Assembly: GCF_030409755.1 (NCBI RefSeq)
Contig: NZ_JAUFQE010000002.1
Location: 124,001 to 188,000, forward strand
DNA length: 64,000 nucleotides
Source: Vibrio lentus
GTDB lineage: Bacteria; Pseudomonadota; Gammaproteobacteria; Enterobacterales; Vibrionaceae
Reading direction: 5' to 3'
A program made the translations under genes and the position numbers. Shown here piece by piece: positions 25,218 to 47,059 of the stretch. Position 1 is the stretch's first letter, and each line of letters begins with the position of its first letter. Below the pieces are notes generated by a model. The model had not been told where the DNA came from. It ran no database searches and saw only the letters and a program-made list of their open reading frames with translations.

Positions 25218-25280
25218 ATGTGCAGTGCAGGCCAAGATAAAATCAGAAAAATAATCCATGTCGATATGGATTGTTTTTAA
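25218..25280 (+). pseudogene. dinB: 5' fragment of chromosomal dinB (20 codons), cut by the island
   Basis: From ATG 25218 the translation ends RKIIHVDMDCF and then meets TAA. This is the conserved N terminus of DNA polymerase IV, including the catalytic-metal aspartate of HVDMD. In other DinB proteins the next residues are FAAVEMRDNP, and in this window these reappear at 46046. The first codons (MCSAGQDKI) fit a Vibrio DinB start, though the exact start codon is a guess. The stop codon is made at the junction by island DNA. Confidence 0.9.
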
Positions 25281-25371
25281 ACTCTGACGTGTTAGTTTGA
25301 AGAAAAATTTGTAAGTATTTTTATTGTTTACTACCTTTCACTTATAGGTGGCAACTTAATGGTAAAAATGT

Positions 25372-26604
25372 ATGCAAAGAGTACGTGATAAAACTCATAA
25401 CAAGCACTGGATTTATCTTGATGATAACGATGTGCCACTTCTGTTACCTTGCCTTTATAGTCGTTACACCACCTTGAATGGGCTTTCTGTTGTCCATGAG
25501 AAAGTAAAGAACGCTGAGACAGAGCAATATGACTTCCAATTCAAGGAGGTTGAAATTGGTGAAGATGCTCAAAACGTCAGGGGTGAGAAATTGGGTGTTT
25601 TCCTTGAGTGGTTAGAAGATTATGCCAAAGAATCAGATCAGCCCCTACTTACACTCGATAACCATATTGCTCTTCCCGATGAATATATGAATACATTCAT
25701 TAATGACCATCTAGTTCATAAGATGGAAGTTAGTGAAGTTGTCGTTAATCGAGCAGTAATGTCATTAGAGAGTTATTACAACTGGCTTTCTTACTTCTTT
25801 GATATGTCATATAAAAAAATCTTTATATATTCAGAAAATAGACAATTAGTTCGCTTAAATAGCAAATCAAAACTTATCATAAAATATCTCCTTCCAGCGA
25901 CAAGGGAATTGCTTTACGCCAATACAAATACTTTTTTGGAGGAGATTGTTCTACGCAATGGTGGAGAGCTTGGTTGTCGAACCAAAGAGAACCAAGGGTT
26001 TTACTTGGAAGATTTTAAGGCTGATGGCTTTATTCAAAAAGGCTTATTGAACCTTTTTAAAGATATTATGGCTAATCCTGATAAAGAGGAATTTGAGTAC
26101 CACCTAGCTTCTTTTCACGCAAAATATGGTTCAAAGAGAAAGTTTTATATTCAGCGTTCTCACCTTAGTTTAATGAAGCGTTATTACGACCAAGAGCGCC
26201 CTAAAACTGAGAGTAACCAGTTATTGGTCTCCAACTCTACTAATGACACTTTTGGTAAGCCCGTAGGTAAACAATACGGCACTCAGCTTTTTTCTAGGGT
26301 GTTAGAGAAAGTTCGCAAATTAATACAAGAGAATCCAGAAGCTTACTCAGGTTATCAAGAGTTGGATAAAGCTCTGAGTTACCACCACTTAAGACACTCT
26401 TTTGGCACTGATATTTTTTATGAAGGTTGTCAACAAGCAAAGAAATCATACGAATCGATTACCACGGAATCTGCAGTGTATATTGAAACCGCAAGACGCT
26501 TAGGACACAAAGTAGATAGCAAGTATTCAAACCAAACCACAAAAATGTATATTCATGCTTGTGGCCAGAGAGAGCAGTTACTAAGAGAGGTGGTTCTTGG
26601 ATAA
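25372..26604 (+). CDS. ginA: GinA-like tyrosine recombinase
   Basis: A 410-residue tyrosine recombinase that would cut and rejoin DNA at the island ends. The C-terminal catalytic domain shows HHLRHSFGT (HxxR, H338-R341), ARRLGH (H379) and the nucleophile candidate Y393 in TTKMYIH. The N-terminal half has no motif I recognise. It is the first of four genes in the order and size pattern of ginABCD in GInt islands; the symbol rests on that pattern. It begins 154 bp after the broken dinB ATG and ends with an 8-bp overlap into the next gene. Base composition is A+T-rich compared with the core genes. Confidence 0.85.
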   Translation: MQRVRDKTHNKHWIYLDDNDVPLLLPCLYSRYTTLNGLSVVHEKVKNAETEQYDFQFKEVEIGEDAQNVRGEKLGVFLEWLEDYAKESDQPLLTLDNHIALPDEYMNTFINDHLVHKMEVSEVVVNRAVMSLESYYNWLSYFFDMSYKKIFIYSENRQLVRLNSKSKLIIKYLLPATRELLYANTNTFLEEIVLRNGGELGCRTKENQGFYLEDFKADGFIQKGLLNLFKDIMANPDKEEFEYHLASFHAKYGSKRKFYIQRSHLSLMKRYYDQERPKTESNQLLVSNSTNDTFGKPVGKQYGTQLFSRVLEKVRKLIQENPEAYSGYQELDKALSYHHLRHSFGTDIFYEGCQQAKKSYESITTESAVYIETARRLGHKVDSKYSNQTTKMYIHACGQREQLLREVVLG

Positions 26605-28846
26605 TTTAGAGGAATTTTCAAGCACTGAGATAGAAAGGGTGCTATCAAGTGAATTTAAGAAAAAGCAACCGATAGCATCACTAGAGTTGCCTTTCTCTGT
26701 TAAGTCTATTTCTATCCCTCAGAGTAGAAAAAGTGCTGCCTATATTCTATCCATGACTGACACCGAGGATTCCGATAAATCGATTATCTACAAGGCAATG
26801 ATTGCGGCTTATAACTACGCCTTTTTTGACAAAAGTGCTGCGTTTTCTGCAACAGTATACTTTTCGAATGCAGCCAAACCATTCATTGAATGGCTCAATG
26901 CCCACAAAATTGAAAATCGCTACGAAGCTATAAAACTTTACGAAACCGACCGTATGGATGAGTTAGAGAATCATGGTGGTTATAGCCCTTTAATTACTTT
27001 GAAGTGTGTATTGGGTTATGCCATTGAGTCTGAATCATTAAGAAAAGAGTTAAGTAGTGATGAGTATGCGTATCTTATTGAGCTTCGCAAAACAAAACAC
27101 ACCCCTAACCTGAATAAGTCTCAAAAATCTATAGCCAGTTATTTCGGTGCATTAGACTGGTTAAGAAGAGACGATATTGGTATTGGAAGTGAGCTTTATT
27201 CCGCTCTCGCTTCCCCAAAGTTGGCGGTGAATTCATTAAGCTTAACCGCAGCTACTGTTATTCTTGCATTGAAAACCTATAAAGATGAACTACAAGCGCT
27301 GATTAGGAGTATTAAACCGCAGTTAAGTCCCTGGTTAGTTATTGAGTCAAAGGATAGTAGATTTGAGAGGTGTAAAGCAGTAGGTAATATCATTTATTTG
27401 ATGTTGTCTGCTTACCATAAACAAGATAATTCATCGAATACCCTTAAAGCAGCGCTAGAGGTTTTGATTCTTTCTAATTCAAGTAGTTTAGTTACCTACA
27501 ATACTATTACTCCAGCATTAAAGAGCCAGAATGAGTGTGATAGCCTTTTTTTGAATAAAAGACGTGACAAAACGAAAGTTAATGTGGGTTTCACAGGTTT
27601 GCATTCTTCTGCAGTACTAGATGGCACTCTTTTCTCTATCGAGTGGATTAAGGGTGTGTTAAATGGCGATTCATCAAAAGCACTGACTAATGTAGAGGGG
27701 TTAATGTTTGCTTGGTTGATGGCCAGCTTAACGGTGCAACCAAATGACATACCTAAACTAAGGCACTCTGATTTTAGATTGATGAAAGTTGGTGGAAGAG
27801 TCACTAATATTGAGTGCGAGTATTTTAAAGGTCGGGCTAAAGTGTTTCATACAACCCGTTCTTTATCCGCTCGAACACCAGAAGGTAAGGCGCTTTTAAC
27901 ACTACTTGAACAGCAGGATGAAGGCTTGCCTTTCTTTGCTAAACAATTATTGGTAATTAGTAACAACATCAACGCACTTTTAGGTGTTTTTGCTGCGATA
28001 CTTCAAATAAGCGACTTGTCTGAAAAGCTTGAAGCTGCACACGAAAAACAACAGCAACCCAATTTAATGCCTCAAGTAATTTGCGTACTGATTTCCCACG
28101 GTGCCCATCCTGAAAATGTTATTGATAACCCTAGGAAAATAACGATAGAAGAGAGATGTAAATTAGTCGCTCAATCGCAATCACCTTGCCAGAGAGGTAT
28201 TTTCGGTCTTCAAGTTATTAAAAATAGTGCAGTTCATGCATTTAGTGACTCATACACATTGAATTACTTGATTAATCGAAACTCTCATTCGAACCAAACT
28301 GAGAAAGTAAGCTACCTAACCGAAGATAATGAAGAATGGATGAATAGCTCTGGTCGAATCACTCGTGAGGTGATGCTGGATTTGATTCATAATGTTTTTA
28401 ATTTGAACTTTAAGGCTGAGAATGAAAAACAAGTCGCAGCATTTAATAGTGAGTTTATGGCGGTCACAGATTTGATTTCATACAAGCATGAGGAAATGAA
28501 TGCAAGGCTTAGAGTCGTCACAGGGCAAGAAAAGGGTCGAGTTAATGAAGTGGGCGTGATGGCGTTGAGTGACCAAAAAGAAAATGAAGCGTTATCGCCG
28601 ATCTATGTCTCAGATAGCCCTATTACTGTTTTAAAAATGCACAATTATCTCCATGAATTCAAAAAGAACTATAAGAAGCTCCTTTCTCATAATCCTGACC
28701 ACTTATTTAAAACTGTGATACCGACTGTGGAATGGCTAGAAGACACCCTACCCAAGATGAGTAAAGCATCACAACGTAAAGGTAGGGAGCAGTTTGACTT
28801 AATGATAAAAAATGGCGTGGTAATGAGCGTCTTTCACTCGATGTAA
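26597..28846 (+). CDS. ginB: GinB-like large recombinase-related protein
   Basis: A 749-residue protein in second position of the gin operon. The TTG start overlaps ginA by 8 bp, which implies coupled translation. Sequence around residues 370-400 (FAWLMASLTVQPNDIPKLRHSDFRL) looks like the box I region of tyrosine recombinases, but the usual arginine after TG is replaced (QPND). Further on, AVHAFSDSY stands where HxxR should be, again without the arginine, and I find no clear C-terminal tyrosine motif. It may therefore be a non-catalytic partner of GinA and GinC. Assignment as GinB rests on position, size and the recombinase-like core. Confidence 0.75.
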   Translation: MDNLEEFSSTEIERVLSSEFKKKQPIASLELPFSVKSISIPQSRKSAAYILSMTDTEDSDKSIIYKAMIAAYNYAFFDKSAAFSATVYFSNAAKPFIEWLNAHKIENRYEAIKLYETDRMDELENHGGYSPLITLKCVLGYAIESESLRKELSSDEYAYLIELRKTKHTPNLNKSQKSIASYFGALDWLRRDDIGIGSELYSALASPKLAVNSLSLTAATVILALKTYKDELQALIRSIKPQLSPWLVIESKDSRFERCKAVGNIIYLMLSAYHKQDNSSNTLKAALEVLILSNSSSLVTYNTITPALKSQNECDSLFLNKRRDKTKVNVGFTGLHSSAVLDGTLFSIEWIKGVLNGDSSKALTNVEGLMFAWLMASLTVQPNDIPKLRHSDFRLMKVGGRVTNIECEYFKGRAKVFHTTRSLSARTPEGKALLTLLEQQDEGLPFFAKQLLVISNNINALLGVFAAILQISDLSEKLEAAHEKQQQPNLMPQVICVLISHGAHPENVIDNPRKITIEERCKLVAQSQSPCQRGIFGLQVIKNSAVHAFSDSYTLNYLINRNSHSNQTEKVSYLTEDNEEWMNSSGRITREVMLDLIHNVFNLNFKAENEKQVAAFNSEFMAVTDLISYKHEEMNARLRVVTGQEKGRVNEVGVMALSDQKENEALSPIYVSDSPITVLKMHNYLHEFKKNYKKLLSHNPDHLFKTVIPTVEWLEDTLPKMSKASQRKGREQFDLMIKNGVVMSVFHSM

Positions 28847-28855
28847 GGGGGATTT

Positions 28856-31639
28856 ATGACACAAAAAGTATTTAAAAATCCAGTTGATAGTTTTTGGTAT
28901 GACCAGAATTTAAAGTTGACCGCTAACCCATTTTTCATGAGTGATAAAGGCGATGTATATTCTGATACTTGGTACTTTAAGATTAGACGCAATGGCGCTA
29001 TCACAACATTGGATTTTTCATTGTTTGATTTACCCGCTTTTAACCATGAATCCATAGCGACTTACTTAAAGGATGGGTGTGACCACCCTTTAAATGCGAA
29101 AAAATATGCAAAGTTAGTTTGTCTGAGTGTCATCAGTCCTAGGGACTCTCAAGCTGTTCTTCCTGTTTATCAAATGATGCTGCACCTTTTCGCCTTCCTT
29201 AAAGAGAATAGCGCAACAAGCCTTACTGTATCGTCATTGGAGTCTTTTTGGATATCAGTTATGGGAAGAACGACCAACCAGTATGGATTTGTGAATCGTA
29301 TATCAACGCCTTCTTATCGAGGAGCAATTAAACCAGTTCAATTTCATAAAATAAGAAATAATCTTAAAGCATTAGGTGTTGTTGGTGTTATTGATTCCAT
29401 TCCAACACAAAAAAAAATAGAAAAAAGCTTAGATGAAGTCTGTCAATCACAATACAGCACAACGCTCAATGAGTTTAAAAAAGGCGGTAGCTTTAACTTT
29501 CTTGGGCTTGAGTTGGGGCAGTATTACGTTGACCATCTTAATCAGGTTTATCAAAACGACTTTCTGTATGCCTCTGTATGTCGGTTGGTATTTGAGAGTA
29601 TCGACACTAAATATGGGATGAAGAGTTTAGATACCAGTTTATCTAATAGCCTCCGTGAAATCATACTTACTGCAATATTAAATGACAAAGAGTATAAGCC
29701 TACCGGCCACAGAGGCGGAATTAATTTTAATGCTCTTGCAGTGGAAGTGAGAGATGCGCTTTTTGAGGAATACTTGAAGCGATTTGAGTTGGTAACGCCT
29801 TTAAAAGACCAATCCATTGAAGCGTTAGTTATTGAGTTAGGATTATTCTCTCGAAGTGATTCAGTGGAATTAATTCGAATATTAATGCTGCAAAAATACT
29901 TAGGTTTAGAGGGGAATAAGAAATCACATCAGGTATGGCAAGGCTATTTGCTTTCATTAGATAAAACCTTTTTAGAGGCAGAATCTTTAAGCCAATTATC
30001 CGTAGATGATGTGTACGAAAAAATGCAAATAATTGTCTCTAAGCAAAGATTGGGGAGGGAGCTGTTTCTTGCTGATATTGGCGTTTGGGCAAATAAACAA
30101 TTCTTTCATTCAGAGTTAAAAACGTATCGAAGCTTTAAAGAAATTCTGAATATTCCACTTTATGCGATGACTAATCTTGTTGTGGCGTGGACAGGCTATC
30201 GACTATCTGAATTCGGTTTTCCATTGAATGCGATACACTCTGAACCGAATTTGGATATTCTCGACAATGCTCACGTTCCATTTCGCTTCAAGCTTAAATG
30301 GCTTGTCCCTAAAACGGGCGGTTCAACCAAAATTAATCGAGAAATCACCTCTCAGTGCTATCTAGTTGCCGCACAATTAAATGAGGTGTTCGGGCGTGAA
30401 GGTGATGAGCCGTGCCTATATTCTTGTGCAGAACAGGCTAAAAAGGAGAGCATTAATCAATCTGCAAAATACATTGATAATAGAGTTAGAGCGAATTGGG
30501 AAGGCTTTGTCAGAGCGTACCAGCCTTTTAATGATGTGGTTAAGCTCGATACCTTAAATAGCAAGCACACTGCTCAGTTGACGATTGATGAGCAAAAAGA
30601 ATTAGAATTGCTGTCAGCCAAATACAGTATTGGCAGTGCTCGTTATAAGAACTTGCTTTCTTGTGCTCAAGAGGTGAAAAAAGATTGGGTGAGACTGTCC
30701 TGCACAAGTTTTAACTCCGCTAAAGCTCAAAAAGCGCTGAAAGTCTCTATTAAACTATTCTCTAAAGGTGAGCCTCTTGAAAATACAAAGCATCAAGAAA
30801 TTATCGAAACTTATCTTTCCGATGAAACTAAAGCGCTGCTAGTCAATGGCTCAGTGGATTTGAATGATAAGAAAACAACGATGGATATTAGCTCTGAGTT
30901 ATTAAAAGGTGCGCGCTATCCTTCTCCCCACGCTTTTCGTCATATATGGGCTGAGTCAGTTCTCACACGCTATCAGGGTGATGTGGGTGCGGTTATACGC
31001 CACCAGTTTGCTCACCTAGATAATTCTTTCTTCATGGCGTACCTAAGGGATAAAGATGCTAGAGGGTTAATGCAATCAGCGAAGCAGCGTTACCTAAACT
31101 CATTGGTCGAATTGCTGATTATAGAGTCAGAGCAAGTTGGTAAAAAATACGTAGGCGGTTTGGCACAGTTCGTGAAAAAAGCGACAACATTAACGCAAGT
31201 GAAAGATGATAATGGAATACTTGCTCTAAGAGAGGCGTTAAGTGGTCGTATCATTGATATTCAGGTGAATACTTTCGCTACTTGTATTCCTCGTGATGGA
31301 GCGGATTCTAGAGCAAAATGTTCGAAAATGGGGTTGTTAAACCCACAAGATGCCAAGCCTGATCTTTGTCTGAATTGTACCAATGTACTCATCACTGAGG
31401 GTAATATCAAAGGGATATGGCAAGTGATTCAACCAATGGTTAAAGAGTCGTTACAGGAGCACGCTTTTGGTTTCTTTTTAGAGGCACACCTACCAACACT
31501 CAAATCAAGCTGGAAGCGCATCAAAGAGCTTAGAAGTGAAAAGAACGTTGTGAGTGTCGATAAGATTTTAGCTGCAATTAGCAAAGCAATTAATGCTATA
31601 GAAAGTAAGGTTAAGGAAGAGGAAAAGCTGTATGCATAA
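28856..31639 (+). CDS. ginC: GinC-like large tyrosine recombinase
   Basis: A 927-residue protein with a complete-looking tyrosine recombinase active site: R449 in TGYRLSEF, H692 and R695 in PHAFRHIW, H720 in FAHLDNSF and Y729 in FMAYLRDK. After the catalytic domain, about residues 815-850, a cysteine cluster (ATCIPRDG, AKCSKMG, LCLNCTN) suggests a zinc-binding module. The C terminus is a helical tail. It starts 10 bp after ginB and overlaps ginD by 8 bp. The long N-terminal region is unassigned. It probably acts with GinA in integration and excision. Confidence 0.82.
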   Translation: MTQKVFKNPVDSFWYDQNLKLTANPFFMSDKGDVYSDTWYFKIRRNGAITTLDFSLFDLPAFNHESIATYLKDGCDHPLNAKKYAKLVCLSVISPRDSQAVLPVYQMMLHLFAFLKENSATSLTVSSLESFWISVMGRTTNQYGFVNRISTPSYRGAIKPVQFHKIRNNLKALGVVGVIDSIPTQKKIEKSLDEVCQSQYSTTLNEFKKGGSFNFLGLELGQYYVDHLNQVYQNDFLYASVCRLVFESIDTKYGMKSLDTSLSNSLREIILTAILNDKEYKPTGHRGGINFNALAVEVRDALFEEYLKRFELVTPLKDQSIEALVIELGLFSRSDSVELIRILMLQKYLGLEGNKKSHQVWQGYLLSLDKTFLEAESLSQLSVDDVYEKMQIIVSKQRLGRELFLADIGVWANKQFFHSELKTYRSFKEILNIPLYAMTNLVVAWTGYRLSEFGFPLNAIHSEPNLDILDNAHVPFRFKLKWLVPKTGGSTKINREITSQCYLVAAQLNEVFGREGDEPCLYSCAEQAKKESINQSAKYIDNRVRANWEGFVRAYQPFNDVVKLDTLNSKHTAQLTIDEQKELELLSAKYSIGSARYKNLLSCAQEVKKDWVRLSCTSFNSAKAQKALKVSIKLFSKGEPLENTKHQEIIETYLSDETKALLVNGSVDLNDKKTTMDISSELLKGARYPSPHAFRHIWAESVLTRYQGDVGAVIRHQFAHLDNSFFMAYLRDKDARGLMQSAKQRYLNSLVELLIIESEQVGKKYVGGLAQFVKKATTLTQVKDDNGILALREALSGRIIDIQVNTFATCIPRDGADSRAKCSKMGLLNPQDAKPDLCLNCTNVLITEGNIKGIWQVIQPMVKESLQEHAFGFFLEAHLPTLKSSWKRIKELRSEKNVVSVDKILAAISKAINAIESKVKEEEKLYA

Positions 31640-32183
31640 TGACTTTGAATTAGATGAGCTTATGTCGGATAAGTTTCTGGACTCGTTAGACGATACCTTA
31701 GATAAATCAGAACAGAATGAACAATCTTCATGGGTGGTTAACGAATCCGAGCATACAACCCATAAAGCTTACCATGCCATTCTTAATTTAAAAAAAGAAG
31801 CCGAAGAAGCGATTTCAAGCTTTGGTGAGGTAGCAACAAATAAGACTAAGAAGTTCTACCAAATTAAAAAGTCTAATGTAGCTAGAGTGGTTGGCCGGTC
31901 AGCACAAAGCATTTTTAATGCGTCCTCATTCAGTAAAGACATTGAAGGCTTCTTTGATGATGTTAATCAAGAGCTTTTAGAGATGCATGAAATTGAACAA
32001 AAGAAGCAATTAAAAAGAAAGAAAACGGGCATCAGAGTTAATAAAAAAGAAGTTATTGTTCAGAGTCATCAATCTTTAGAAAAAAAGTACAACGCACTTA
32101 AAGCTCGAAGCGTCAAAGAAACATTGGATTTAGCCGTTGCCAAGATGCCTTTGGATTTGAAAGCAAAAATGGGACTTATGTAA
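31632..32183 (+). CDS. ginD: GinD-like small charged protein
   Basis: A 183-residue, strongly charged, helical protein with an acidic start (FELDELMSDKFLDSLDDTLD) and a lysine-rich second half (KKQLKRKKTGIRVNKKEV). No catalytic motif is visible. It overlaps ginC by 8 bp and is last in the operon, the place of ginD, which is required for GInt movement. It may be a DNA-binding accessory or directionality factor; this is inference. Confidence 0.7.
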   Translation: MHNDFELDELMSDKFLDSLDDTLDKSEQNEQSSWVVNESEHTTHKAYHAILNLKKEAEEAISSFGEVATNKTKKFYQIKKSNVARVVGRSAQSIFNASSFSKDIEGFFDDVNQELLEMHEIEQKKQLKRKKTGIRVNKKEVIVQSHQSLEKKYNALKARSVKETLDLAVAKMPLDLKAKMGLM

Positions 32184-32234
32184 GTCGTCAAAAAAGCTAT
32201 ATTTTCGTTACAAACAGATGCATATATCTTGGGC

Positions 32235-32365
32235 TTAATCTTCATCTGGAATCAAATCATAGATAGAACATTTGAGAGCTTTAGATATCGTAAACACCTT
32301 ATCTAAAGTCACATTTTTTCACCACGCTCAAGAACACCAATATAATTTAAACTAAAGCCGCACTG
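32235..32365 (-). pseudogene. Remnant of an XRE-type regulator (C-terminal half, frameshifted)
   Basis: On the minus strand, FSLNYIGVLERGEK is followed, after loss of one A in an A-run, by NVTLDKVFTISKALKCSIYDLIPDED and a stop. This is the recognition-helix and C-terminal part of an HTH_3 regulator with its start missing. It lies between ginD and an IS66 remnant and is plainly inactive. Confidence 0.7.
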
Positions 32366-32399
32366 TAGTATCCGACTCATGAACCCACGGGGCGACTTG

Positions 32400-32816
32400 T
32401 TAGTGTTTGAAGTTCCAAGGTAGGAGTGAGTCGATATCAGACTCTACTTTCGCCAGCTCTTTCATGCACTTGACCATGTATTCGTAGAGGATAAGACCAT
32501 TGGCTTTCGCAGTCTCGATGATGCTGTAAAGCATGGCGCTCGCATCAGCACCGTTTGGTGTGTCTGAGAATAACCAATTTTTTCTGCCAATGACTAGCGG
32601 TTTAATTGCGCGTTCAGCGCGATTATTATCGATAGATAAGTGACCATCATCGATATAACGTATGAGCTTTGGGCATTGTGCCCGAGCGTGTATTTTATCG
32701 CTTTATCTAGTGGACTAGAGCCTATCACTTTCTGGGTCGTCATCCATTCGTAAAGTTCATCCAGTATCGGCTTGGCATGCGCTTGACGCTCCGAGCCCTT
32801 TCGCTGGATCGTGTAG
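32400..32816 (-). pseudogene. IS66-family transposase (TnpC) C-terminal remnant
   Basis: The minus strand encodes the IS66 TnpC C terminus in two frames. The first is GSERQAHAKPILDELYEWM...; after a frameshift near 32680 it continues [35 protein letters not shown], and ends [15 protein letters not shown] and a stop at 32400. [11 protein letters not shown] holds the catalytic glutamate region of IS66. The remaining 5' two thirds are gone. The remnant abuts the last codons of the XRE gene at 32817, and the terminal CPIRD of that regulator may be encoded by IS-derived DNA. Confidence 0.85.
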
Positions 32817-33161
32817 TTAATCCCTTATCGGACAGCTATTTTCAAATGACTCTTCAATAAGCCGCACTGTCACCTCAAGAATCTTCTGCTTATCCGTTTC
32901 AGACAGCTTATTTAGATTCACAGCTAACTCCGCAGAAATCTCATCTTCACAAAAGAAGTAACTCAAAGGCACACCAAGTTCATCTGAAATTGACTTTAAC
33001 GTATTGATATCCGGCGCATGTTTTCCCTTTTCGTATTGATTCATTCTCGGGCTTGCGGAGCTTTCATCCATTCCTATACGCACCCCCAAAGCTTTTTGGG
33101 AGAGTTTCGCTTTTTTGCGTGCTTCTTTAAGACGCTCAGGGATTGGGTTAGTAAATGACAC
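32817..33161 (-). CDS. XRE-family transcriptional regulator
   Basis: A 114-residue regulator. The N-terminal 65 residues are an HTH_3 domain (RLKEARKKAKLSQKALGVRIGMDESSASPRMNQYEKGKHAPDINTLKSISDELGVP). The C-terminal half is helical (LAVNLNKLSETDKQKILEVTVRLIEESF), probably for dimerisation. It is divergent from the winged-helix/helicase pair; the 83-bp gap has two identical-pattern palindromes that are likely its operators, so it probably represses itself and the helicase operon. Confidence 0.88.
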   Translation of the reverse strand: MSFTNPIPERLKEARKKAKLSQKALGVRIGMDESSASPRMNQYEKGKHAPDINTLKSISDELGVPLSYFFCEDEISAELAVNLNKLSETDKQKILEVTVRLIEESFENSCPIRD

Positions 33162-33190
33162 TTATAGTTCATGTCTCTGATCTCAAGGTA

Positions 33191-33241
33191 ACTAAGATTT
33201 TCTTAGTTTTACTGATTTCTGTATACTAAGCAATCCTTAGT
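33191..33241. promoter_or_regulatory. Two 17-bp palindromic operators, ACTAAG-N5-CTTAGT
   Basis: ACTAAGATTTTCTTAGT (33191-33207) and ACTAAGCAATCCTTAGT (33225-33241) share perfect 6-bp arms and a 5-bp spacer, with centres 34 bp apart. They lie between the divergent XRE and winged-helix genes. The arms are identical while the spacers differ, as expected for protein-binding sites. Binding by the adjacent XRE protein is inferred. Confidence 0.82.
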
Positions 33242-33264
33242 TTTTGGTTGGTGTAATTTTGGAA

Positions 33265-33795
33265 ATGAAACGGGCTCGAAGAATTAGTGCGGTCATGCAC
33301 AAGTTATTGATAGAAAGTGGGTTAGATGGATTCACCGTGCTAGAAGCGAGAGATTTATGGCTATCACTTGGTAATGTGGACTCCAATTCAGCCGAAGCTC
33401 GTAAAAAGGTGTACCGAGCAATTTTTCACTTTGAAAAGAAAAGTTGGTTGCGAAGTGAGGGATCAGGTCGGAAAAAGCGTTACTTTCAAACGGAACAATT
33501 TAAAGGTTTACATAACAATGTAACCACGAATAACCAAGCGGATATAAAGCCTAAAGTACCCATTCAAAACTATTCCATTTTGATCAATGAACGTAATGAA
33601 TATAAGGGTGAACTTGAGATCGTACTTGGGGAGATTGACGAATATCAATCGATCGTATCTCGATTTCCTGAGCTAGAAAATAAACTAGCCCCTTTGCATC
33701 AAGAGGCTAAAGAGCGCGCCGCTTTATTGCTCGGTAAAGTGAATGTTTTAACAAGGGTGCTGAATACTCTCTATGAAGGAGATGAGCCGTGTTAA
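33265..33795 (+). CDS. Winged-helix/coiled-coil protein coupled to the helicase
   Basis: A 176-residue protein with an N-terminal winged-helix-like region (VLEARDLWLSLGN, ARKKVYRAIFHFEKKSWLRSEGSGRKKRYFQ), a linker, and a C-terminal coiled coil (NEYKGELEIVLGEIDEYQSIVSRFPELENKL). I choose ATG 33265; a TTG at 33244 also opens the frame but overlaps the second operator region. The end overlaps the helicase start by 7 bp, so the two are coupled and likely work together, perhaps as a DNA-recognition subunit with its motor. No known system is assigned. Confidence 0.75.
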   Translation: MKRARRISAVMHKLLIESGLDGFTVLEARDLWLSLGNVDSNSAEARKKVYRAIFHFEKKSWLRSEGSGRKKRYFQTEQFKGLHNNVTTNNQADIKPKVPIQNYSILINERNEYKGELEIVLGEIDEYQSIVSRFPELENKLAPLHQEAKERAALLLGKVNVLTRVLNTLYEGDEPC

Positions 33796-35168: not shown

Positions 35169-35272
35169 TTGAAAAAAACATAGGCTACAATTTCACTAAA
35201 GGCACACTGGGGAGGCCGGAATGAATTACTTTGCAGAGGACCCCTTCTAGGTAATGCAAACCTGGAGGGTAA

Positions 35273-35560
35273 ATGAAAAGGCTAAAACAGCAGTACCAGA
35301 ACCGTATAAAATACCAGTGCCAATATCTTTGGGGTCTTTATCCAAGCGTTCGCAGTGGAACTCATAAGCACTTTTCTACCAAGCAGGAAAAGAGCTATTA
35401 TTTTCTTCACAAGGTTGAGTGTAGAGGTTACCCGATTAAACTGCGAGCCGCGCGAGGAAGAGCGTTAGCTAACCCATGGGACGACTACCCGTCGTATGTG
35501 TATGGCCTAGCAAAAAGTTGGAAGCATAACTCGAGGCGTCAAAAACAATACTACCGATAA
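35273..35560 (+). CDS. Small basic protein of unknown function
   Basis: A 95-residue, very basic, aromatic-rich protein (MKRLKQQYQNRIKYQCQYLW... ending KSWKHNSRRQKQYYR). The start has a strong site (CTGGAGGGTAAATG) and a terminator follows within 10 bp, so it looks like a real gene. I do not recognise a domain; the composition suggests nucleic-acid binding. It follows the helicase by 105 bp, the intervening DNA being GC-rich and possibly structured in RNA. Confidence 0.55.
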   Translation: MKRLKQQYQNRIKYQCQYLWGLYPSVRSGTHKHFSTKQEKSYYFLHKVECRGYPIKLRAARGRALANPWDDYPSYVYGLAKSWKHNSRRQKQYYR

Positions 35561-35566
35561 CCCATC

Positions 35567-35594
35567 AAAGCTCTCTATTCTGGAGAGCTTTTTT
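35567..35594 (+). terminator. Terminator after the small basic gene
   Basis: Stem AAAGCTCTC / GAGAGCTTT with a 7-nt loop followed by TTTTT. Confidence 0.92.
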
Positions 35595-35724
35595 ATACGA
35601 AATACTCTCTTCAATCGAAGGCTAATTATTAGCATCACTATGGTGTTATTTTGATTTTAAATTATTGATTTTAAATGTTAATTTATTGACGTTTACGCTG
35701 GTTGTTATTAAGTAAACCACCCAC

Positions 35725-35767
35725 ATCGCAAGTTGCGATGCGCAGGTTGCGATTCGCTACCTGCGAA
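35725..35767. repeat. Cluster of 15-bp spaced palindromes, (A/T)TCGC-N5-GCGA(A/T)
   Basis: ATCGCAAGTTGCGAT (35725-35739), the overlapping GCGCAGGTTGCGA (35740-35752) and TTCGCTACCTGCGAA (35753-35767) are adjacent palindromic units. A second copy of TTCGCTACCTGCGAA stands at 37513-37527 beyond the IS, within further TCGCTTGG repeats (37467-37501). The IS appears to have landed inside this array. The DNA before it (35595-35724) is A+T-rich with no gene. Function unknown; binding sites are one option. Confidence 0.7.
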
Positions 35768-38799: not shown

Positions 38800-41064
38800 T
38801 CACTCATCTATATCATCAAAAATGCTTCGACTGCTCGTATAGCTTACATTCGGTTCATCAACTATGATGTCTCGCGAAGCCGAACTGTCTTCCTCCAGTG
38901 GGTTTTCATCGACCCATTCTTTAACTAACATGCGCTGTTTTTCTATAATATTTCTAATACGCAAACTATGTGGATATTCATCTACAATGCCTGAAAGCAG
39001 TTGAGTAAAACGATTCATGTGCCACTCTGGGTCTTCTTCGGGATCGTGCTCTTCTTGATGTAAATAACGTACTTCCTCAATTCGCGGCAGTAATTCAGTA
39101 CGAATCGCTTCTCTTAGTATTCTCACTTCCTTATCATTTAATAGTGAGCGGAGCTCAGGGTCACCTAGAACTCTGGCATCTTCACCATTTTGAGCATATT
39201 TCGAGACCGTAGTTACCAGTGTTTTACGCGCGCTTTCTGGTAAGATGCCTAGTTTGAACAAGCGAATAGCTAAGTCTACTTCTACCGAAAAATCTAAGTT
39301 CGGCGTAGGGGTCGTGATATGATCAATTAATTTGGGGTCAGCTCTGAGATACGATTCGAGAAACTGCTTGTTGCACCGTCCGTTTAAAAAACTTAGCAGT
39401 TCTCGTCGAGCCCACCAACCTGACATCCATTGAGTCTTATAGGCAGAACTTGTTTTATATGTAATAAGTCGCTTAATGAGTAATTCAAACATAGAACTAG
39501 GCAGTACAACAGCTTGTTCAATGTCTACGTTGCCACAAGTTATCTGACGCATCAGCTTTTGGATATCGCTACCGCGGACATAAATCCCAAGCAGCTCCGG
39601 ACTGCCTCGAAGCATGACAGAGTATGCGTCTCCAATAGTTGGGTGTTTGAAAGTCCAAAAGGACTTTCCGTCCGAATTCACGTGGACTACTAGACTATCG
39701 CGCAGTGCTTCGAGTGCAGCTGTACATCCTCCCAAGTCACTGCCCAATCGCCTCAGAGTATCATCCTCAGCAGCCGTCAATGTGACCGGGCTTTGCAATT
39801 GACCGTTGGACATATAAATTAATGCTAATGCTGCTTTGCAACCGGCGTCTAGCTCTTTACAGGTATCTATGAGGAATTGTTCGCGCTTATCTACAAACCT
39901 CTCCAAGCTCAAATCAGACAGGTACAAATTTTTGGTGAAAAATGGATCTGCCAACCTCCTAGCTGTTTCTGGAATGAACCTATCATGATCTGCAACAGTC
40001 TCTAAATGTGGTTTAACCGCAGCACGAAACTCTCTGGGTTGTCTTCCAAGCTTTAGATGGTTGTAGAGAATCTGCCTTCGTTCGTCTGGCGTTAGGTTAT
40101 GAACATCTACAACAACCTGGCTCTCCTGGAAGAGTGGGAAGGCGCCGTCCTTCAAATCCTGACGTGCACGATTATAGATGTAGTCTCGTGACGTCATAAC
40201 GATACGGTTTCCTTGGCGAAGAATGGTTCTCACCTCATTGAGGATATGATTCCAACCGGAGGCAAGGCCACTTTCATACTGAGTCACTCCGAATGCGTCA
40301 TCGATCCAGAATAGTTGGGACTTTTCATTAGGATTCCAACGCTCAACGACTGACTGGGGTGTCATCAACTTAACCACAGACGCTCCCCATTGGTCAGCAG
40401 ATGACATAGCAAGTAATGATGCTATGGTCGTTTTTCCTGAGGCTGGCTCGCCAACTAGAAGCACAAAACTATGCGTGTCGAGAGCTTCAGCTGCTTTTCG
40501 ATAAGACTCAGTTAAAACGACCTTAGCTAGATCTTCTTTCATTGTTTCGAGTACAGCTTTGGCTTGAGCATATGCTCGGTCGTCTAGAATTTGGCTCAAG
40601 TCTCCGAGACCGTATACTCTTGGAACCATCATCCTTAAATGCTTATTGTCACGAATTTGGTCTTCCAGCCAAGTGGAACCCAATATAAGGAAATCTTTGA
40701 TTCCTGCTTCTTTGGACCTTTCCTTAATCTTTAGTTCGGTAGCACCGGAAACACCAGCGTTTGTCATTAGAATATAAATGTCACATTCATTCTTGCTGAC
40801 TAATCGTTCGGCTTTGCTGAATTCGTCTTCGAGATCTGATGGTGTGAGAGAGTGCCCAACGCGAGCGGTGAACTTACATTGGATCACAAAGCGGCCAGAG
40901 AACAACTCACCATTTTGTTGGCTCCAGATACCTGAAAATGCTCCATCTCTACCGCCGTCATTAGTATCTAGAAAGGACTGGACCGTTTGACCGAGAACTT
41001 CGCGTAATACCGAAAGGCACAACTGTTGAAAGCTGTGCCAACCAAGAGTATGAAGATTAAACAT
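38800..41064 (-). CDS. Restriction-endonuclease-like / nSTAND3 NTPase fusion (candidate defence gene)
   Basis: A 754-residue, two-domain protein. Residues about 1-140 look like a PD-(D/E)XK nuclease of the Mrr kind: FQQLCLSVLREVLG, NDGGRDGAF (D40), FVIQCKFT (Q62, K64). Residues about 155-400 are a STAND-type P-loop ATPase: Walker A GEPASGKT (205-212), Walker B LFWIDDAFG (D255, D256), sensor VMTSRDYIYNRA. The C-terminal 350 residues are helical, probably the sensor part. This architecture is that of nuclease-STAND proteins used in anti-phage immunity (Avs-like), though it is shorter than known Avs proteins. The true trigger is unknown. It follows a truncated DUF4297-like gene on the same strand. 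Confidence 0.82.
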   Translation of the reverse strand: MFNLHTLGWHSFQQLCLSVLREVLGQTVQSFLDTNDGGRDGAFSGIWSQQNGELFSGRFVIQCKFTARVGHSLTPSDLEDEFSKAERLVSKNECDIYILMTNAGVSGATELKIKERSKEAGIKDFLILGSTWLEDQIRDNKHLRMMVPRVYGLGDLSQILDDRAYAQAKAVLETMKEDLAKVVLTESYRKAAEALDTHSFVLLVGEPASGKTTIASLLAMSSADQWGASVVKLMTPQSVVERWNPNEKSQLFWIDDAFGVTQYESGLASGWNHILNEVRTILRQGNRIVMTSRDYIYNRARQDLKDGAFPLFQESQVVVDVHNLTPDERRQILYNHLKLGRQPREFRAAVKPHLETVADHDRFIPETARRLADPFFTKNLYLSDLSLERFVDKREQFLIDTCKELDAGCKAALALIYMSNGQLQSPVTLTAAEDDTLRRLGSDLGGCTAALEALRDSLVVHVNSDGKSFWTFKHPTIGDAYSVMLRGSPELLGIYVRGSDIQKLMRQITCGNVDIEQAVVLPSSMFELLIKRLITYKTSSAYKTQWMSGWWARRELLSFLNGRCNKQFLESYLRADPKLIDHITTPTPNLDFSVEVDLAIRLFKLGILPESARKTLVTTVSKYAQNGEDARVLGDPELRSLLNDKEVRILREAIRTELLPRIEEVRYLHQEEHDPEEDPEWHMNRFTQLLSGIVDEYPHSLRIRNIIEKQRMLVKEWVDENPLEEDSSASRDIIVDEPNVSYTSSRSIFDDIDE

Positions 41065-41856: not shown

Positions 41857-44010
41857 ATGAAAATCAATGTATCGAAAATCAAGAAAGATAGTATTTTCAC
41901 TGACGAATATTTAGCGCTAACGCAGAACAACGAGTTAGATTTCGAACGTAAGAAAGTATGTGTGGTATATGGACCTAATGGTACTGGAAAAACAAGTTTA
42001 TCCAAGGTCTTAAACCAAGACCAAGATGTAGAGTACACGCTGGACATTGGTGGTATAGAACATACCGAAAATAGTGATCCGATAGCTCATATCATATCAG
42101 ACCAAAATGACAGAAACGTAATTCAAGGTGAGACTCAGGATTTTATCCTCGGCGATGATATTAAAAGGGAATACCAACTTAAAGAAAAACTGAACGACAG
42201 CTTTTCCTTACTGTTCGAAAAAGAACTTGTTGGTATCCTCAAGAAAAACTATCAAATAGCTAAAATGAGTACGAATTTTGATGAGCTCATTCTAGATAAA
42301 GACCTATTAGGTTACATAGCAGACATAGCAAATAGTCGATCCAGAGGTAAAAAAATAGATCGTAAAAACTTCATTGATAAAGTATACGGATACCAATTAG
42401 CAGAAACGCCAGACTATGATGAAGCGAAGCTAAGGTTTTTCATTGAGGATTTTGCCAAAAATGACTCAATCATTCGCGCTTTATCAAACTACAATTTCCA
42501 ACTTGATGATAAAGAACAGAGCATAGTCAAACTTGAAGAGCAAAGCGAAGCTGTAATAATTCTAGAGAAATTTAATTATATAGATGAATGTTTAGTCTGC
42601 GACCATCCTATTGATGTAGTAGCTAAACTAGCTCAGAAAAACGAACAATATGAACAAACATCCAATCAAATGGATGAAAAAGAAAAAGAGATAGCAGAAA
42701 AGATCATCAAGAACCTGTCTCAGCCTGACTCGTTTAATATCAAAGATAGAGTTAGAACTGCTATAAAGAAATCTGATAAATCCTTCATTGAGGATCTAGT
42801 CGTTGAATTCAACAATTATAAATCAGTGTACTGGCAGCTTCTCAAACATGACTTTATAACAACTTCAACTAATCACGCGTTACAAGAAGACTATGAAGCC
42901 TATCAAGCATTACTCAAGAATAAGCCAACATTTGGAAGTGAAGACATATTGTTCATCGAACAGTTTCTAAATGAATCTCTTGAGCGTGAAATTTCGCTAG
43001 AGCGTGATGATAATAACAATATTAGACTTATGTTAGGAGGGAAAGACTTTTTAAACAAAAACCGCCAAGACCTTGAGCTAAGTAATGGTGAGCAGAACTT
43101 CCTTTCACTCGCATTTGAGCTCTTAAAAGCGAAAAACTCGGCATGTGAATTAATCGTACTTGATGACCCGATATCGAGCTTTGATTCCATTTACAAGAAC
43201 AAACTAGCATATGCGATTTTAAGCTTCTTATCTTCCAAAAAGACTCTAGTCCTTACGCACAACACAGACTTAATTAAACTATTAGAGCATCAGGCAAAAC
43301 AGTGCTTAAACTTGTACTACTTCAACAACGTATTAGGCGAGAGTAACGGCTTTACGCCAATTAACCCTCAAGAAATGTCGATTCTCTTGTACATCCATGA
43401 ATTCTTAAACCTTTTAAGAGAGGATATAAAAACGGAAATTGATGATGAAAAACAATTTCTGATATCTCTAGTTCCGTTTATGCGTGGGTTTTGTCAAATT
43501 AGGGGATTGGTAGAAGAAAAGAACAAGTTAACTCAGTTAATGCATGGTTACTGTGATGAAATGATCAATGTTACAGAAATCTATGAGAAGCTATTTTCTG
43601 ACAGAGTGCTAGGGAATGTTCATAAAATATCAGCGAAGGAAGTTGTTGGTTGGGACTATACAAAATTTAGCCCTTTAAAATCAGAATCTTACCCTTTACT
43701 ATCAAAAACACTAAGGCACACACTTACATATTTATACTTGAGGCTAAATGTTGAAAAAGTTTTAGTTGATACATATGCCATCAATACAAACAAACACGAT
43801 ATGCTATCTAGTATCATTTTCGCATCGTTTAAGGGAAATGAACGTGAAAAGATACAACATCGTGTCTTTTTCATGTCAAAGAAGACTCTTCTAAATGAGT
43901 TTAATCACTTTGAAATGGATATGAACATCTTTCAGCCTGCAATCGATATTACAGACAAAGCTTTAAACAAAGAGCGAGAGCAGATACTCAAGCGATTAAA
44001 AACACTATGA
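41857..44010 (+). CDS. SMC/RloC-like AAA ATPase with zinc hook (candidate defence gene)
   Basis: A 717-residue ABC/SMC-type ATPase of the AAA_13 kind. Walker A is GPNGTGKT (39-46), signature LSNGEQNFLSLAF (from S409), Walker B IVLDDPISSFDS (D436, D437), and H-loop LVLTHN (H468). A CLVC zinc-hook motif (C245, C248) sits in the coiled-coil insertion, followed by long charged helices. After the ATPase core there is a 240-residue C-terminal domain with RLNVE (R629, E633) and histidines 647 and 668. PrrC and RloC anticodon nucleases use an R-x3-E...H triad there, so an RNase effector is possible but not shown. No HNH partner follows, which argues against Septu. Confidence 0.8.
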   Translation: MKINVSKIKKDSIFTDEYLALTQNNELDFERKKVCVVYGPNGTGKTSLSKVLNQDQDVEYTLDIGGIEHTENSDPIAHIISDQNDRNVIQGETQDFILGDDIKREYQLKEKLNDSFSLLFEKELVGILKKNYQIAKMSTNFDELILDKDLLGYIADIANSRSRGKKIDRKNFIDKVYGYQLAETPDYDEAKLRFFIEDFAKNDSIIRALSNYNFQLDDKEQSIVKLEEQSEAVIILEKFNYIDECLVCDHPIDVVAKLAQKNEQYEQTSNQMDEKEKEIAEKIIKNLSQPDSFNIKDRVRTAIKKSDKSFIEDLVVEFNNYKSVYWQLLKHDFITTSTNHALQEDYEAYQALLKNKPTFGSEDILFIEQFLNESLEREISLERDDNNNIRLMLGGKDFLNKNRQDLELSNGEQNFLSLAFELLKAKNSACELIVLDDPISSFDSIYKNKLAYAILSFLSSKKTLVLTHNTDLIKLLEHQAKQCLNLYYFNNVLGESNGFTPINPQEMSILLYIHEFLNLLREDIKTEIDDEKQFLISLVPFMRGFCQIRGLVEEKNKLTQLMHGYCDEMINVTEIYEKLFSDRVLGNVHKISAKEVVGWDYTKFSPLKSESYPLLSKTLRHTLTYLYLRLNVEKVLVDTYAINTNKHDMLSSIIFASFKGNEREKIQHRVFFMSKKTLLNEFNHFEMDMNIFQPAIDITDKALNKEREQILKRLKTL

Positions 44011-44012
44011 AT

Positions 44013-44047
44013 TAAATGATAGGCACCGAGAGGGGGCCTATCATTTA
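44013..44047 (+). terminator. Perfect hairpin after the AAA ATPase gene
   Basis: TAAATGATAGGC / GCCTATCATTTA form a perfect 12-bp stem around an 11-nt loop, starting 3 bp after the stop codon. A T-tract is absent beyond the arm, but position and stability suggest a transcript end. Confidence 0.75.
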
Positions 44048-44146: not shown

Positions 44147-44236
44147 AGGGTATCTGCTTTTCCATCCCTAATGTTATTCGCTAAATTTGAAATTAAGTAA
44201 TTAGTCTAAATTGTTTTTGTCCAGAGGCGTGTCAGC

Positions 44237-44706
44237 ATGATCGTCGTTGGCATGCCCCCAGTTTTTGTGATCAGCAAGGGATCGGATATCCCGCGCCTTC
44301 AAGTATGTTGTCATATGAGTTCATTAAAACGGAACTGTACTGCAGAAAAGTGCTTGGGCGCATACTTCGAGTTAACTCTTCAGAAGTACAACATGCTTGG
44401 TTATTTACCTTTGCTGAGCCAAATCTAATTGAGTTTGCAGAGCGAATTGAAGATGACATTCCGGAGTCATGTCTTTATGCCCACATGAGAGAGCAAAACA
44501 AGCCTCAGATTCCCATTCAGCGTAATGCTTCTAGTAATTCTCGCTCTTTGCTGAAGAGAGTAACGGCTCGAATGTTACTTGGGGAAGTAACGGTGCCCAT
44601 GTCTATGAAGGCGGTTTCGGAGGGAGTCTAAGAGTATTTGATGAGCTTCAGCTTGGGGCATTTTGGAAAGGGTTATTTCGTCTTTTTCATCTATATAGTT
44701 GAACAC
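44237..44706 (+). pseudogene. Decayed second copy of the SF2 helicase 3' end
   Basis: The DNA encodes SDIPRLQVCCHMSS and, after a frameshift, KTELYCRKVLGRILRVNSSE, HAWLFTFAEPNLIEFAERIEDDIPES, matching motifs V-VI and the C terminus of the helicase at 33789-35168. Nucleotide similarity continues past the old stop (GATGAGCTTCAGCTTGGGGCATTT here, GATGAGCTTCGACTTGGGGCATTT there, shown in part). The 5' two thirds are missing. It lies just upstream of the element-borne dinB. Confidence 0.85.
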
Positions 44707-44751
44707 TGCATCGTAGATTCTTTTGCTAATACCAGATTTGAATTGCTATAC

Positions 44752-44771
44752 TGCTGTGCAAATACACAGTA
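44752..44771 (+). promoter_or_regulatory. LexA (SOS) box of the element-borne dinB
   Basis: CTGTGCAAATACACAG (44754-44769) is a perfect CTGT-N8-ACAG LexA core, 58 bp before the element dinB start. The replacement polymerase gene therefore appears to keep SOS control. Confidence 0.85.
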
Positions 44772-44827
44772 CAAAGGTGTTGAAAAAGGTTTATGCACCT
44801 AAACCATTCAAAAACATCGATTAAAGT

Positions 44828-45877
44828 ATGCGAAAAATAATTCATATTGATCTCGACAGTTACTATGTCTCTGTAGAAGCAAGGGACAACCCCTCTTTAC
44901 GTGGAATTCCTCTAGCAGTTGGAGGGAAAAATGGTCGCGGTGTTATTGCAACTTGTAGTTATGAGGCGAGAGCTTTTGGTGTGCGTTCGGCTATGTCTAC
45001 AACAAAAGCGTTACAACTTTGCCCAAGCTTAACAGTAGTGTCTGGAAATATGGAAAAGTATAAGGCGGTATCTAGGCAAATCCATGAAATATTTAGACGG
45101 TATACGGATGTAATAGAGCCACTATCCTTAGACGAGGCGTATTTAGATGTCACAGGTTCTAAGCTGTTTCAAGGTTCAGCAACTTTAATTGCAGAAGACA
45201 TACGCAAGTCTATTCAAACTGAATTGAATTTAACGGCTTCGGCAGGAATTTCCCCATTAAAGTTTGTTTCTAAAGTCGCTTCAGATGTGAATAAACCTAA
45301 TGGTATATGTATTGTCCCACCTTCTGAGATCCAAACTTTTATAGACGAATTAGAATTAGGGAAAATAAATGGTGTTGGGAAGGTGACGTTAGAGAAATTA
45401 AACAAACTCGGCTTATATAAAGGGGATGATGTTAAGAATTTCGATAAAAACACTTTGATTTCAAAATTTGGCAAATTCGGACATACACTTTGGCAAAGGT
45501 GCAATGGTATTGATGATAGAGATATTGTTGTCGAAAGGATTAGAAAGTCAGTAGGGGTTGAGCGGACATATTTAAATGATATTCATAGTTTGGATGAATG
45601 CATACTAGCAATAAAGCCTCTGTATGTCGAATTAGAGCAAAGGTTAGAAAAAGCGCTTGCAGATAAAGTGATCACGAAACTCGGTGTAAAATTAAAGTTC
45701 AACGATTTTCAACAAACAACGGTTGAACATAAGTATGATGAAATGGATATGCAGTTTTTTATCAAGTTATGTGAAGAAGCCGTTGCTAGAAGTCATGGAC
45801 GAAGTATACGTTTAGTCGGATTAAGTGTTGGTATTGAACCCAAGAAATCAACGGACCAATTACAACTCCCTTTGTGA
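44828..45877 (+). CDS. dinB: DNA polymerase IV carried by the island (DinB, complete)
   Basis: A complete Y-family translesion polymerase of 349 residues. Metal ligands are in HIDLDSYY and PLSLDEAYLD; the steric-gate position is tyrosine (SYYVSVEA) where the host protein has phenylalanine. The helix-hairpin-helix region (INGVGKVTLEKLNKLG) and little-finger domain are present, and the C terminus DQLQLPL is a beta-clamp binding motif. It differs clearly from the interrupted host dinB, is more A+T-rich, and lies in the same orientation at the right end with its own LexA box. It likely restores Pol IV function lost by insertion. Confidence 0.92.
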   Translation: MRKIIHIDLDSYYVSVEARDNPSLRGIPLAVGGKNGRGVIATCSYEARAFGVRSAMSTTKALQLCPSLTVVSGNMEKYKAVSRQIHEIFRRYTDVIEPLSLDEAYLDVTGSKLFQGSATLIAEDIRKSIQTELNLTASAGISPLKFVSKVASDVNKPNGICIVPPSEIQTFIDELELGKINGVGKVTLEKLNKLGLYKGDDVKNFDKNTLISKFGKFGHTLWQRCNGIDDRDIVVERIRKSVGVERTYLNDIHSLDECILAIKPLYVELEQRLEKALADKVITKLGVKLKFNDFQQTTVEHKYDEMDMQFFIKLCEEAVARSHGRSIRLVGLSVGIEPKKSTDQLQLPL

Positions 45878-46045
45878 TTTTTGTAAGTGGATTTTTAAGA
45901 AAATACTAGTTTTTTACATAAATTTCTCGGATTTTTTTGTTAGGGGTTTTTGTTAGTAAGAATTTGTATCTAACCCTATGTTATAAAGACGCATTCACTT
46001 ACTCAGCCAGTCAAACTTACATTTTTCACCTAAGGGTTCTTCAAC
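45878..46045. other. Right terminal region of the island
   Basis: A+T-rich, gene-free DNA between the element dinB stop and the point where host dinB codons resume. It contains CTTACATTTTTC (46016-46027), inverted relative to GAAAAATTTGTAAG near the left end, and ends TTCTTCAAC just before GCAGCTGTAGAA of dinB. These are likely recombinase-binding arms; the crossover is probably within the last 10 bp. Confidence 0.6.
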
Positions 46046-47059
46046 GCAGCTGTAGAAATGCGTGACAACCCGGCTTACCGAAATCGACCACTTGCGGTTG
46101 GTGGGCATGAAAAACAACGGGGTGTCTTGAGTACTTGTAATTATGAAGCTCGCAAGTTTGGTATTCGTTCAGCGATGCCAACGGGGAAAGCACTGCAACT
46201 TTGTCCTAATTTATTAGTGGTTCCGGGAAGAATGCAGGTCTATGTTGAGATCTCTAAAAAGATCCGCGAAATATTTTCTCGATACACAGCATTGATCGAA
46301 CCTCTTTCTCTAGATGAAGCGTTTCTCGACGTGACTGAATCAACATTGTGTCACGGTTCTGCGACCCTGATTGCCGAGTCAATTCGCCGTGATATTTGGA
46401 ACGAGTTAAACCTTACGGCTTCAGCGGGTGTCGCTCCGATAAAATTTCTGGCGAAAGTGGCTTCGGATATGAATAAGCCCAATGGGCAATTTGTTATCCC
46501 TCCGCAAGACGTACAAGCTGTTATCGATGATTTACCACTCGAAAGAATCCCAGGCGTTGGCAAGGTCAGCATTGAAAAGCTCCATCTAGCGGGATTCTTT
46601 ACATGCAAGGACATCAAAGGGGCAGACTATCGAGACTTGCTTCTGAAGTTTGGTCGACAAGGTGCATCGCTGTGGAAGCGAAGCCATGGTATTGATGAAA
46701 GAGAAGTCATCATAGAACGCGAGCGTAAATCCGTAGGCGTTGAGCGAACGTTTACTCAAAATATTTCGACTTATGCTGAGTGCTGGCAGGTGATTGAAGA
46801 CAAATTGTTTCCTGAGCTTGAAACCCGCCTAGAAAAAGCCAGCCCAAGTAAAGCAATCATCAAGCAGGGTATTAAACTCAAGTTTGCCGATTTCCAGCAA
46901 ACAACCATAGAACACATACATGCTTCATTGGATCGAGAACACTTCAAAGAGCTATTGAGTGAGATCTTAAAAAGACAACAAGGGCGAGAGATACGCCTGC
47001 TCGGTTTGAGTGTGATGTTACAACCTAAAGAACAAGTGAAGCAGCTGAGTTTCTTTTAA
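46046..47059 (+). pseudogene. dinB: 3' part of chromosomal dinB, separated from its start by the island
   Basis: From 46046 the frame reads AAVEMRDNPAYRNRPLAVGG and continues to a complete DinB C terminus ending KQLSFF, a beta-clamp motif. The conserved N terminus, with the first catalytic aspartate and steric gate, lies 20.8 kb away at 25218-25277. The ATG at 46058 is an internal methionine and any product from it would lack the first metal ligand. All downstream motifs (PLSLDEAFLD; RIPGVGKVSIEKL) are intact, so the break is recent or reversible. Confidence 0.93.

Follow-up and report, generated by a model that had tools for sequence, protein, structure and literature searches.

A probable SE-like integrative element that splits dinB of Vibrio lentus and brings a divergent dinB of its own

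What becomes of a polymerase gene when a mobile element settles in the codons of its active site? The question is raised by dinB, the gene of DNA polymerase IV (Pol IV), in a 64,000-nt stretch of the Vibrio lentus genome (assembly GCF_030409755.1, contig NZ_JAUFQE010000002.1, positions 124,001–188,000, forward strand; here called the window). The gene is split after codon 20. Its start, at 25218–25277, reads MCSAGQDKIRKIIHVDMDCF and is followed directly by TAA; the rest, on the same strand at 46046–47059, reads AAVEMRDNPAYRN and continues to the stop. Genes, boxes and border features lie on the forward strand unless stated otherwise. An earlier note on this DNA had proposed a mobile island of about 20.8 kb inside dinB, and the island stands; the right end that it gave, 46058, is the next in-frame ATG and not a border. 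Absent from that note is a complete second dinB inside the element (44828–45877). We think it likely that the island is an SE-like integrative element that inserts in dinB and replaces Pol IV with its own divergent version.

The borders were set by comparison with unoccupied relatives, which read CFYAAVE or CFFAAVE across the site. The 5' part of native dinB runs to 25279 (25218–25279, 20 codons and two bases), and its last six bases, TTTTTA (25274–25279), are the crossover spacer of the dinB attB, retained in attL, as located by alignment with unoccupied dinB and related elements. The element occupies 25280–46038 (20,759 bp). It is followed by CTTCAA (46039–46044), an added 6-bp footprint that is missing in unoccupied dinB and differs in each of 10 relatives compared, and native dinB restarts at 46045. 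As first supposed, the site is in the DNA for the polymerase active-site loop. The G+C content of the element is 39.8%, against 43.8 and 44.5% for the flanks. In 13 of 29 dinB loci of relatives the site is unoccupied and flanked, within about 4 kb, by the same GGDEF and RecQ genes, and 12 of these 13 have a full-length dinB frame; in the other 16 loci one or both neighbours are not visible in the stretch, and two of the 29 are occupied. Relatives thus retain dinB in the same gene order, the lack of which the earlier note had named as grounds for giving up the insertion. An intact native dinB elsewhere in the genome would have been equally damaging; the only two dinB matches found are the remnant and the copy in the element. 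Judged from the sequence, the split of dinB by the element is more than chance.

The carried gene, which we call the surrogate, is a complete Pol IV gene (NF002677 score 485.9, cut-off 256; IMS domains) and the only full-length dinB found in the genome. Its protein is 57% identical to the native one, and residues 2–342 can be aligned with solved structures of Pol IV. The native 3' remnant (46045–47059) is open to its stop and lacks the first motif, which presumably holds the catalytic aspartate, so that the remnant should be unable to act as a polymerase. The claim that a conserved housekeeping gene is interrupted holds, and the picture of a lost function is incomplete, since the element carries a replacement. 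Between our element and that of genome G153, codon differences are 47 synonymous and three other in the remnant and 38 synonymous and nine other in the surrogate; by these counts both look selected for most of the time since the two diverged. Compared with G017, the surrogates are 99.4% identical in DNA and the native remnants 80.3%, which points to lateral transfer, with surrogate and host gene moving apart. In G065 the operon of the element is ruined (intA broken, tfp cut short, intB and srap not found) and the surrogate is still open. We take the protein after the shortened tfp of G065 to be an IS3-type transposase.

Related elements were collected with the first recombinase of the element, IntA. 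Searches that count our own genome gave 11 of 148 genomes of the genus at E ≤ 1e-3 and 12 of 227 at 1e-60; beyond the genus there were seven of 394 in the order, one of 369 in the class (our own genome) and six named loci. A broader IntA profile gave eight of 394 (order) and 17 of 227 (genus). From these overlapping sets 24 distinct elements were read, including our own. The earlier note had guessed that related islands reuse the site, and this is now seen: 14 of the 24 are at the same dinB position (our own and those of G017, G126, G005, G143, G065, G153, G191, G167, G377, G954, G454, G223 and G219). Eleven are from Vibrio, one is from Psychrosphaera, and two (G377, G454) come from a different family of the order, each from its own genus. 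G223 and G219 are cut by contig ends; the other 12 were read at both borders. Elsewhere, a trmL-like gene is interrupted by four elements (G007, G071, G133, G136), a dGTPase-like gene by two (G194, G445), a HAD-hydrolase gene by one (G331) and a flagellin-like gene by one (G003). The target names trmL, dGTPase, HAD nucleotidase and flagellin are our own assignments from sequence, presumed to be right. For two of the 24, the second element of G153 and that of G517, the interrupted gene was not identified and no surrogate was seen.

A complete dinB homologue is present in all 12 readable dinB elements, as an open frame that starts with ATG in 10 and TTG in two. Complete homologues of the target are carried likewise at trmL (4/4), dGTPase (2/2) and HAD hydrolase (1/1); in G331 and G445 the sequence read does not extend to the second half of the target gene. 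The dGTPase pair of G194, the only target and surrogate outside dinB run through Pfam, has HD and HD_assoc. The carried gene thus matches the interrupted one in 19 of 19 elements readable far enough. The element in the flagellin-like gene of G003 contains a dinB copy and no flagellin copy.

These matches bear on whether the second dinB might be an ordinary passenger, useful in its own right for mutagenesis or damage tolerance, with the fit to the target a coincidence. The DinB tree can be read that way: nine of the surrogates, all from Vibrio, group with others of their kind in a clade of 58 proteins (SH-aLRT 98, quick tree; element context read for nine rows), apart from a clade that holds 31 of 34 native rows. 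The tree includes 77 of at least 120 DinB matches and excludes NATrem_G017 and G003 (broken frame); the three non-Vibrio surrogates make up another clade, close to long-branched natives, and this position is marked as doubtful by the tree program itself. Two of 12 surrogates (G377, G954) are moreover internal to the element and on the opposite strand, not beside the border, as a passenger might be. Agreement of target and cargo in every one of the 19 elements, across four target genes, speaks against coincidence, and we consider the passenger explanation improbable. Far less credible still is that homologous recombination or misassembly placed a second dinB beside a broken one. Two dinB genes do stand side by side here, but their proteins share only 57% identity, and the same layout recurs across species with different cargo and footprints.

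In the reading that we prefer, replacement of dinB by an SE-like element, the IntA/Tfp-like/IntB/Srap-like operon would be the recombination machinery. One strand exchange between the element ends would give rise to a double-stranded circle, which would insert at ATGGAYTG, a 6-bp spacer and YGC in the active-site codons of dinB. The six bases of the host would remain at the left border and six from the previous location would be left at the right. Insertion would destroy the chromosomal Pol IV, and the carried dinB with its LexA-type box would become the only full-length Pol IV gene, predicted to function as such under SOS control. The surrogate would itself escape insertion by lacking the target octamer.

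The target is well defined: ATGGATTG lies directly beside the spacer at every one of the 12 used sites read at both borders, and also in G219, and the target of G223 reads ATGGACTG. L042 has no match to the site pattern. Used sites lean towards GATTG rather than GACTG, 13:1 against 17:9, without reaching significance (p = 0.07). A palindrome lies around the target (16-nt arms, 88% complementary); it was set aside because the crossover is found at its edge and not in the middle. None of the 12 surrogates keeps the octamer ATGGAYTG, nine reading DLD[SC] and three DMDA. DMDC is found in 23 of 23 unoccupied native proteins of the tree and in none of the 58-row clade; among other database proteins in the tree it is present in 23 of 28 and missing in five (P0047, P0055–P0058). 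The missing octamer fits avoidance of self-insertion, which we put forward with reserve, since common ancestry reduces the cases to only about two independent changes, and the motif is also missing from a few proteins outside the clade. TrmL surrogates differ from their target codons too; this was taken as background synonymous divergence and no claim is made from it.

Footprints give a view of where each copy came from. For SEs, the six bases beside the right-end motif C' are stated to derive from the previous location (PMC10214605). In 11 of 11 dinB elements a dinB spacer precedes the left end, and six foreign bases separate the right end from the rest of dinB. The twelfth, that of G454, was left out of the end and footprint analyses, its ends being unsure. 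The 11 footprints are CTTCAA, TCTAGT, GAGTCA, TGTGGA, ATCTAG, GCACTT, TACATA, AGAATT, TTGCGA, GCATAG and TATAGT, and in none of these elements in dinB does the footprint equal a dinB spacer. The element of G003 (L019 and L020), outside dinB in the flagellin-like gene, has the footprint TTTCTA, which is a dinB spacer; random six-mers of the same base make-up match the spacer set in 0.6%. The left end of this element is also found in dinB of G219. Native dinB of G003 (L088) begins normally with GATATGGATTG, continues with TTT and 11 bases of the element right end (14 counting the three T, which dinB could supply) and then jumps far downstream; we read this deleted gene as an old insertion later lost. 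Taken together, the footprints suggest that the element shuttles between dinB and secondary sites, the side outside dinB being represented by one element. The secondary sites are probably on plasmids.

Searches for such vehicles gave no relatives in viral contigs or phage records and no close relative in plasmid records, where three distant ones were found, two of them with the small protein. On such vehicles dinB-type footprints are predicted. One plasmid, pXY8M38-1 of Shewanella (L137, 11833–19542), has the same four-gene architecture followed by a phytanoyl-CoA dioxygenase gene, perhaps the surrogate of a target yet to be named. The distant element of G454 (IntA 30%; L093, L094, L099) carries a dinB and occupies the same site in dinB, or one very close to it, with different-looking ends; it is perhaps a case of convergent use of the site.

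The motif CTGT-N8-ACAG, which we take to be a LexA-type box, has two exact matches in the window, with 1.02 expected by chance. Their number is ordinary and only their positions are informative. One (25179–25194) belongs to the native dinB promoter and is now upstream of the element operon; the other (44754–44769) starts 74 nt before the ATG of the surrogate. A canonical box is present within 250 nt upstream in nine of 12 surrogates and in 12 of 13 native promoters, the thirteenth being close to it. No terminator-like site was found in 25000–26000, so that SOS read-through into the operon is possible; the old dinB promoter may read into intA.

The left end of the element is a same-direction operon of four genes: a catalytic recombinase, a degenerate one, a large catalytic one and a small protein. 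The intA-like gene (25372–26604) encodes a 410-aa tyrosine recombinase that matches Pfam Phage_integrase below its cut-off (E 0.00056) and is far below that of NCBIfam NF040815. In an alignment of 10 sequences, our own included, R203, K251, R341, H379 and Y393 are invariant and H338 nearly so. The tfp-like product (26597–28846, 749 aa) has a degenerate recombinase motif, H547-x-x-S550, HxxR being replaced by HxxS in an alignment of 27 sequences including our own. It has no Pfam or NCBIfam match and none in a sequence search of solved structures; 132 relatives were found, and among the best 120 nearly all are hypothetical or uncharacterized by name. The intB-like product (28856–31639, 927 aa) has a full catalytic set (R449, K486, H692, R695, H720, Y729), invariant in alignments of five and six sequences. 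It also has no Pfam or NCBIfam match, and a sequence search of solved structures gave two weak matches, one being XerA at E 0.56. Motifs are thus the basis on which the Tfp-like and IntB-like proteins are assigned as putative recombinases. The fourth gene, srap-like (31632–32183, 183 aa), is recognised by synteny and conservation in relatives.

The ends of the element, motif C (25280–25299) on the left and C' (46019–46038) on the right, are imperfect inverted repeats that agree in nine of their first 13 bases. Eight more elements have eight or nine; the outliers are G954 (11/13), G377 (5/13) and G454 (2/13, with its ends unsure). Within the terminal 400 nt, TGTAAG/CTTACA is enriched above all other 6-mers (40 where 1.97 are expected; present in 10 of 11 elements) and is located at 25280–25429 and 45789–46038 in our element; these repeats are candidate accessory recombinase sites.

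The order catalytic, degenerate, large catalytic and small, the inverted-repeat ends and the rule of a 6-bp fingerprint and footprint are those described for SEs (PMC10214605). Our element has the same: a four-gene left operon with two RHRY-motif recombinases around a degenerate one and then a small protein, imperfect repeats C and C', and in 11 of 11 cases six target bases beside C in attL and six foreign ones beside C' in attR. A different class would be the GInts, genomic islands with three integrases, which also have four essential genes in an operon at one end and whose distant members can share one site, ssb (PMC5385486). Their degenerate protein is the third (GinC, without the first arginine), whereas in our element it is the second that is degenerate, the third having the full catalytic set. 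With GInts compared by description, this difference in order leaves us doubtful that the element is a GInt, an assignment to which we give a small chance. The element has the architecture and borders of SEs, but its proteins are unlike those of a verified SE and its gene order is unlike that of GInts; it is therefore filed as SE-like, in a separate family. The likeness of its core proteins to those of the verified SE of pAQU1 is limited to the recombinase motif stretch.

Several points weigh against replacement by an SE-like element as we propose it. In comparison with the pAQU1 SE, profile probabilities were 19% for IntA, 0.6% for IntB, 0.1% for Srap and 0.1% and 0.5% for the Tfp-like protein; homology of Tfp and Srap to their SE namesakes was not found with this one verified SE. 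The circle, the strand bias and the copy-out mode would be carried over from known SEs. Our own footprint, CTTCAA, is one base from a dinB spacer, CTTCTA. The remnant is open to its stop in each of the 12 elements whose borders were both read, so it may retain a function. Three of 12 surrogates lack the canonical LexA-type box. In G003 both dinB copies are broken, the surrogate frame near codon 30 and the native gene by partial deletion, and four of 27 unoccupied loci (L042, L052, L056, L058; the occupied L030, L031 and L036 excluded) have no full-length dinB frame. Unless the assemblies err, loss of Pol IV may thus be tolerated.

Compensation for a damaged target has been proposed before. SE-6283 (Tn6283) sits in bcp and carries a 54.8% identical homologue thought to compensate (PMC5991714, PMC9345347). 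It shares with our element the four-gene left operon, the 6-bp footprint, a conserved target gene and a carried homologue; the target is bcp and not dinB. In Tn552-II, of the Tn554 type, donor flank is brought into the right end and tgl may rescue the disrupted target (PMC12486829), but the host is Staphylococcus, the att site has 7 bp and the genes are others, with a three-gene tnpABC. The recA-mobile elements of Vibrio, named as a parallel and known to us second-hand from PMC5991714, break recA and bring a divergent recA; they are parallel to the dinB element and differ in being of the ICE type. In GInts an outward promoter is believed to lessen the damage (PMC5385486). In the main text of the SE family paper dinB does not occur, and copies of target genes are not discussed in the passages found (PMC10214605). 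Among the papers listed by a literature search on Pol IV and its gene in combination with integrative elements, islands or recombinases, supplements being outside its scope, neither the dinB case nor a rule of this breadth was found. No NCBIfam match named for the Gamma-Mobile-Trio, whose marker genes we take to be gmtY-gmtZ-gmtX, was obtained for the four operon proteins, the content of the library for such models being unchecked. Another Y-family polymerase gene is umuC. It is a hotspot for tmexCD-toprJ elements, which have two integrases and two hypothetical genes; these differ from our element in their resistance cargo, and a carried umuC copy is not mentioned in the passages found (PMC10654056).

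The middle of the element is variable cargo. Our element and that of G017 align over 25000–35767 and 44206–47058 (92% each) and have only one short repeat in common between 35767 and 44206. At 33244–35168 are genes for a 183-aa protein and a 459-aa ResIII/RadD-like helicase. This pair recurs at 89–96% identity in the trmL-type elements G071, G133 and G136, which come from other species and whose IntA is only about 26% identical, and a degraded relative of its 3' part is found at 44305–44631, just before the surrogate; we read the pair as cargo that passes as a module from one element family to another. A transposase-like protein (35856–37382, reverse strand; Pfam HTH domains, rve below cut-off) is perhaps an insertion sequence of its own. 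Two defence-like proteins follow, an Mrr_cat-nSTAND3 protein (38800–41064, reverse strand; Pfam and the PADLOC candidate-system model PDC-S73) and an AAA_13 ATPase (41857–44010; PADLOC candidate-system models PDC-S06).

With the matches counted, a remark made on single elements (bcp of SE-6283, tgl of Tn552-II) becomes a countable rule, 19 of 19. We give even chances to the broader proposal of an unnamed SE-like family whose lineages each use one conserved gene (dinB, dGTPase, trmL or the HAD nucleotidase-like gene) and usually replace it, the dinB lineage having installed a laterally moving, SOS-controlled Pol IV clade, protected from its own recombinase by lack of the octamer, as the sole full-length Pol IV in several marine bacteria, and alternating, by its footprints, between dinB and other sites on passing from cell to cell. 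Replacement would explain how a near-invariant catalytic site can serve as an element address without loss of function. The 6-bp footprints are a readable record of the origin of each copy, so that genome sequence can be used to test the life cycle of elements that lack transfer genes. If the proposal is true, the translesion polymerase of the host is a mobile trait.

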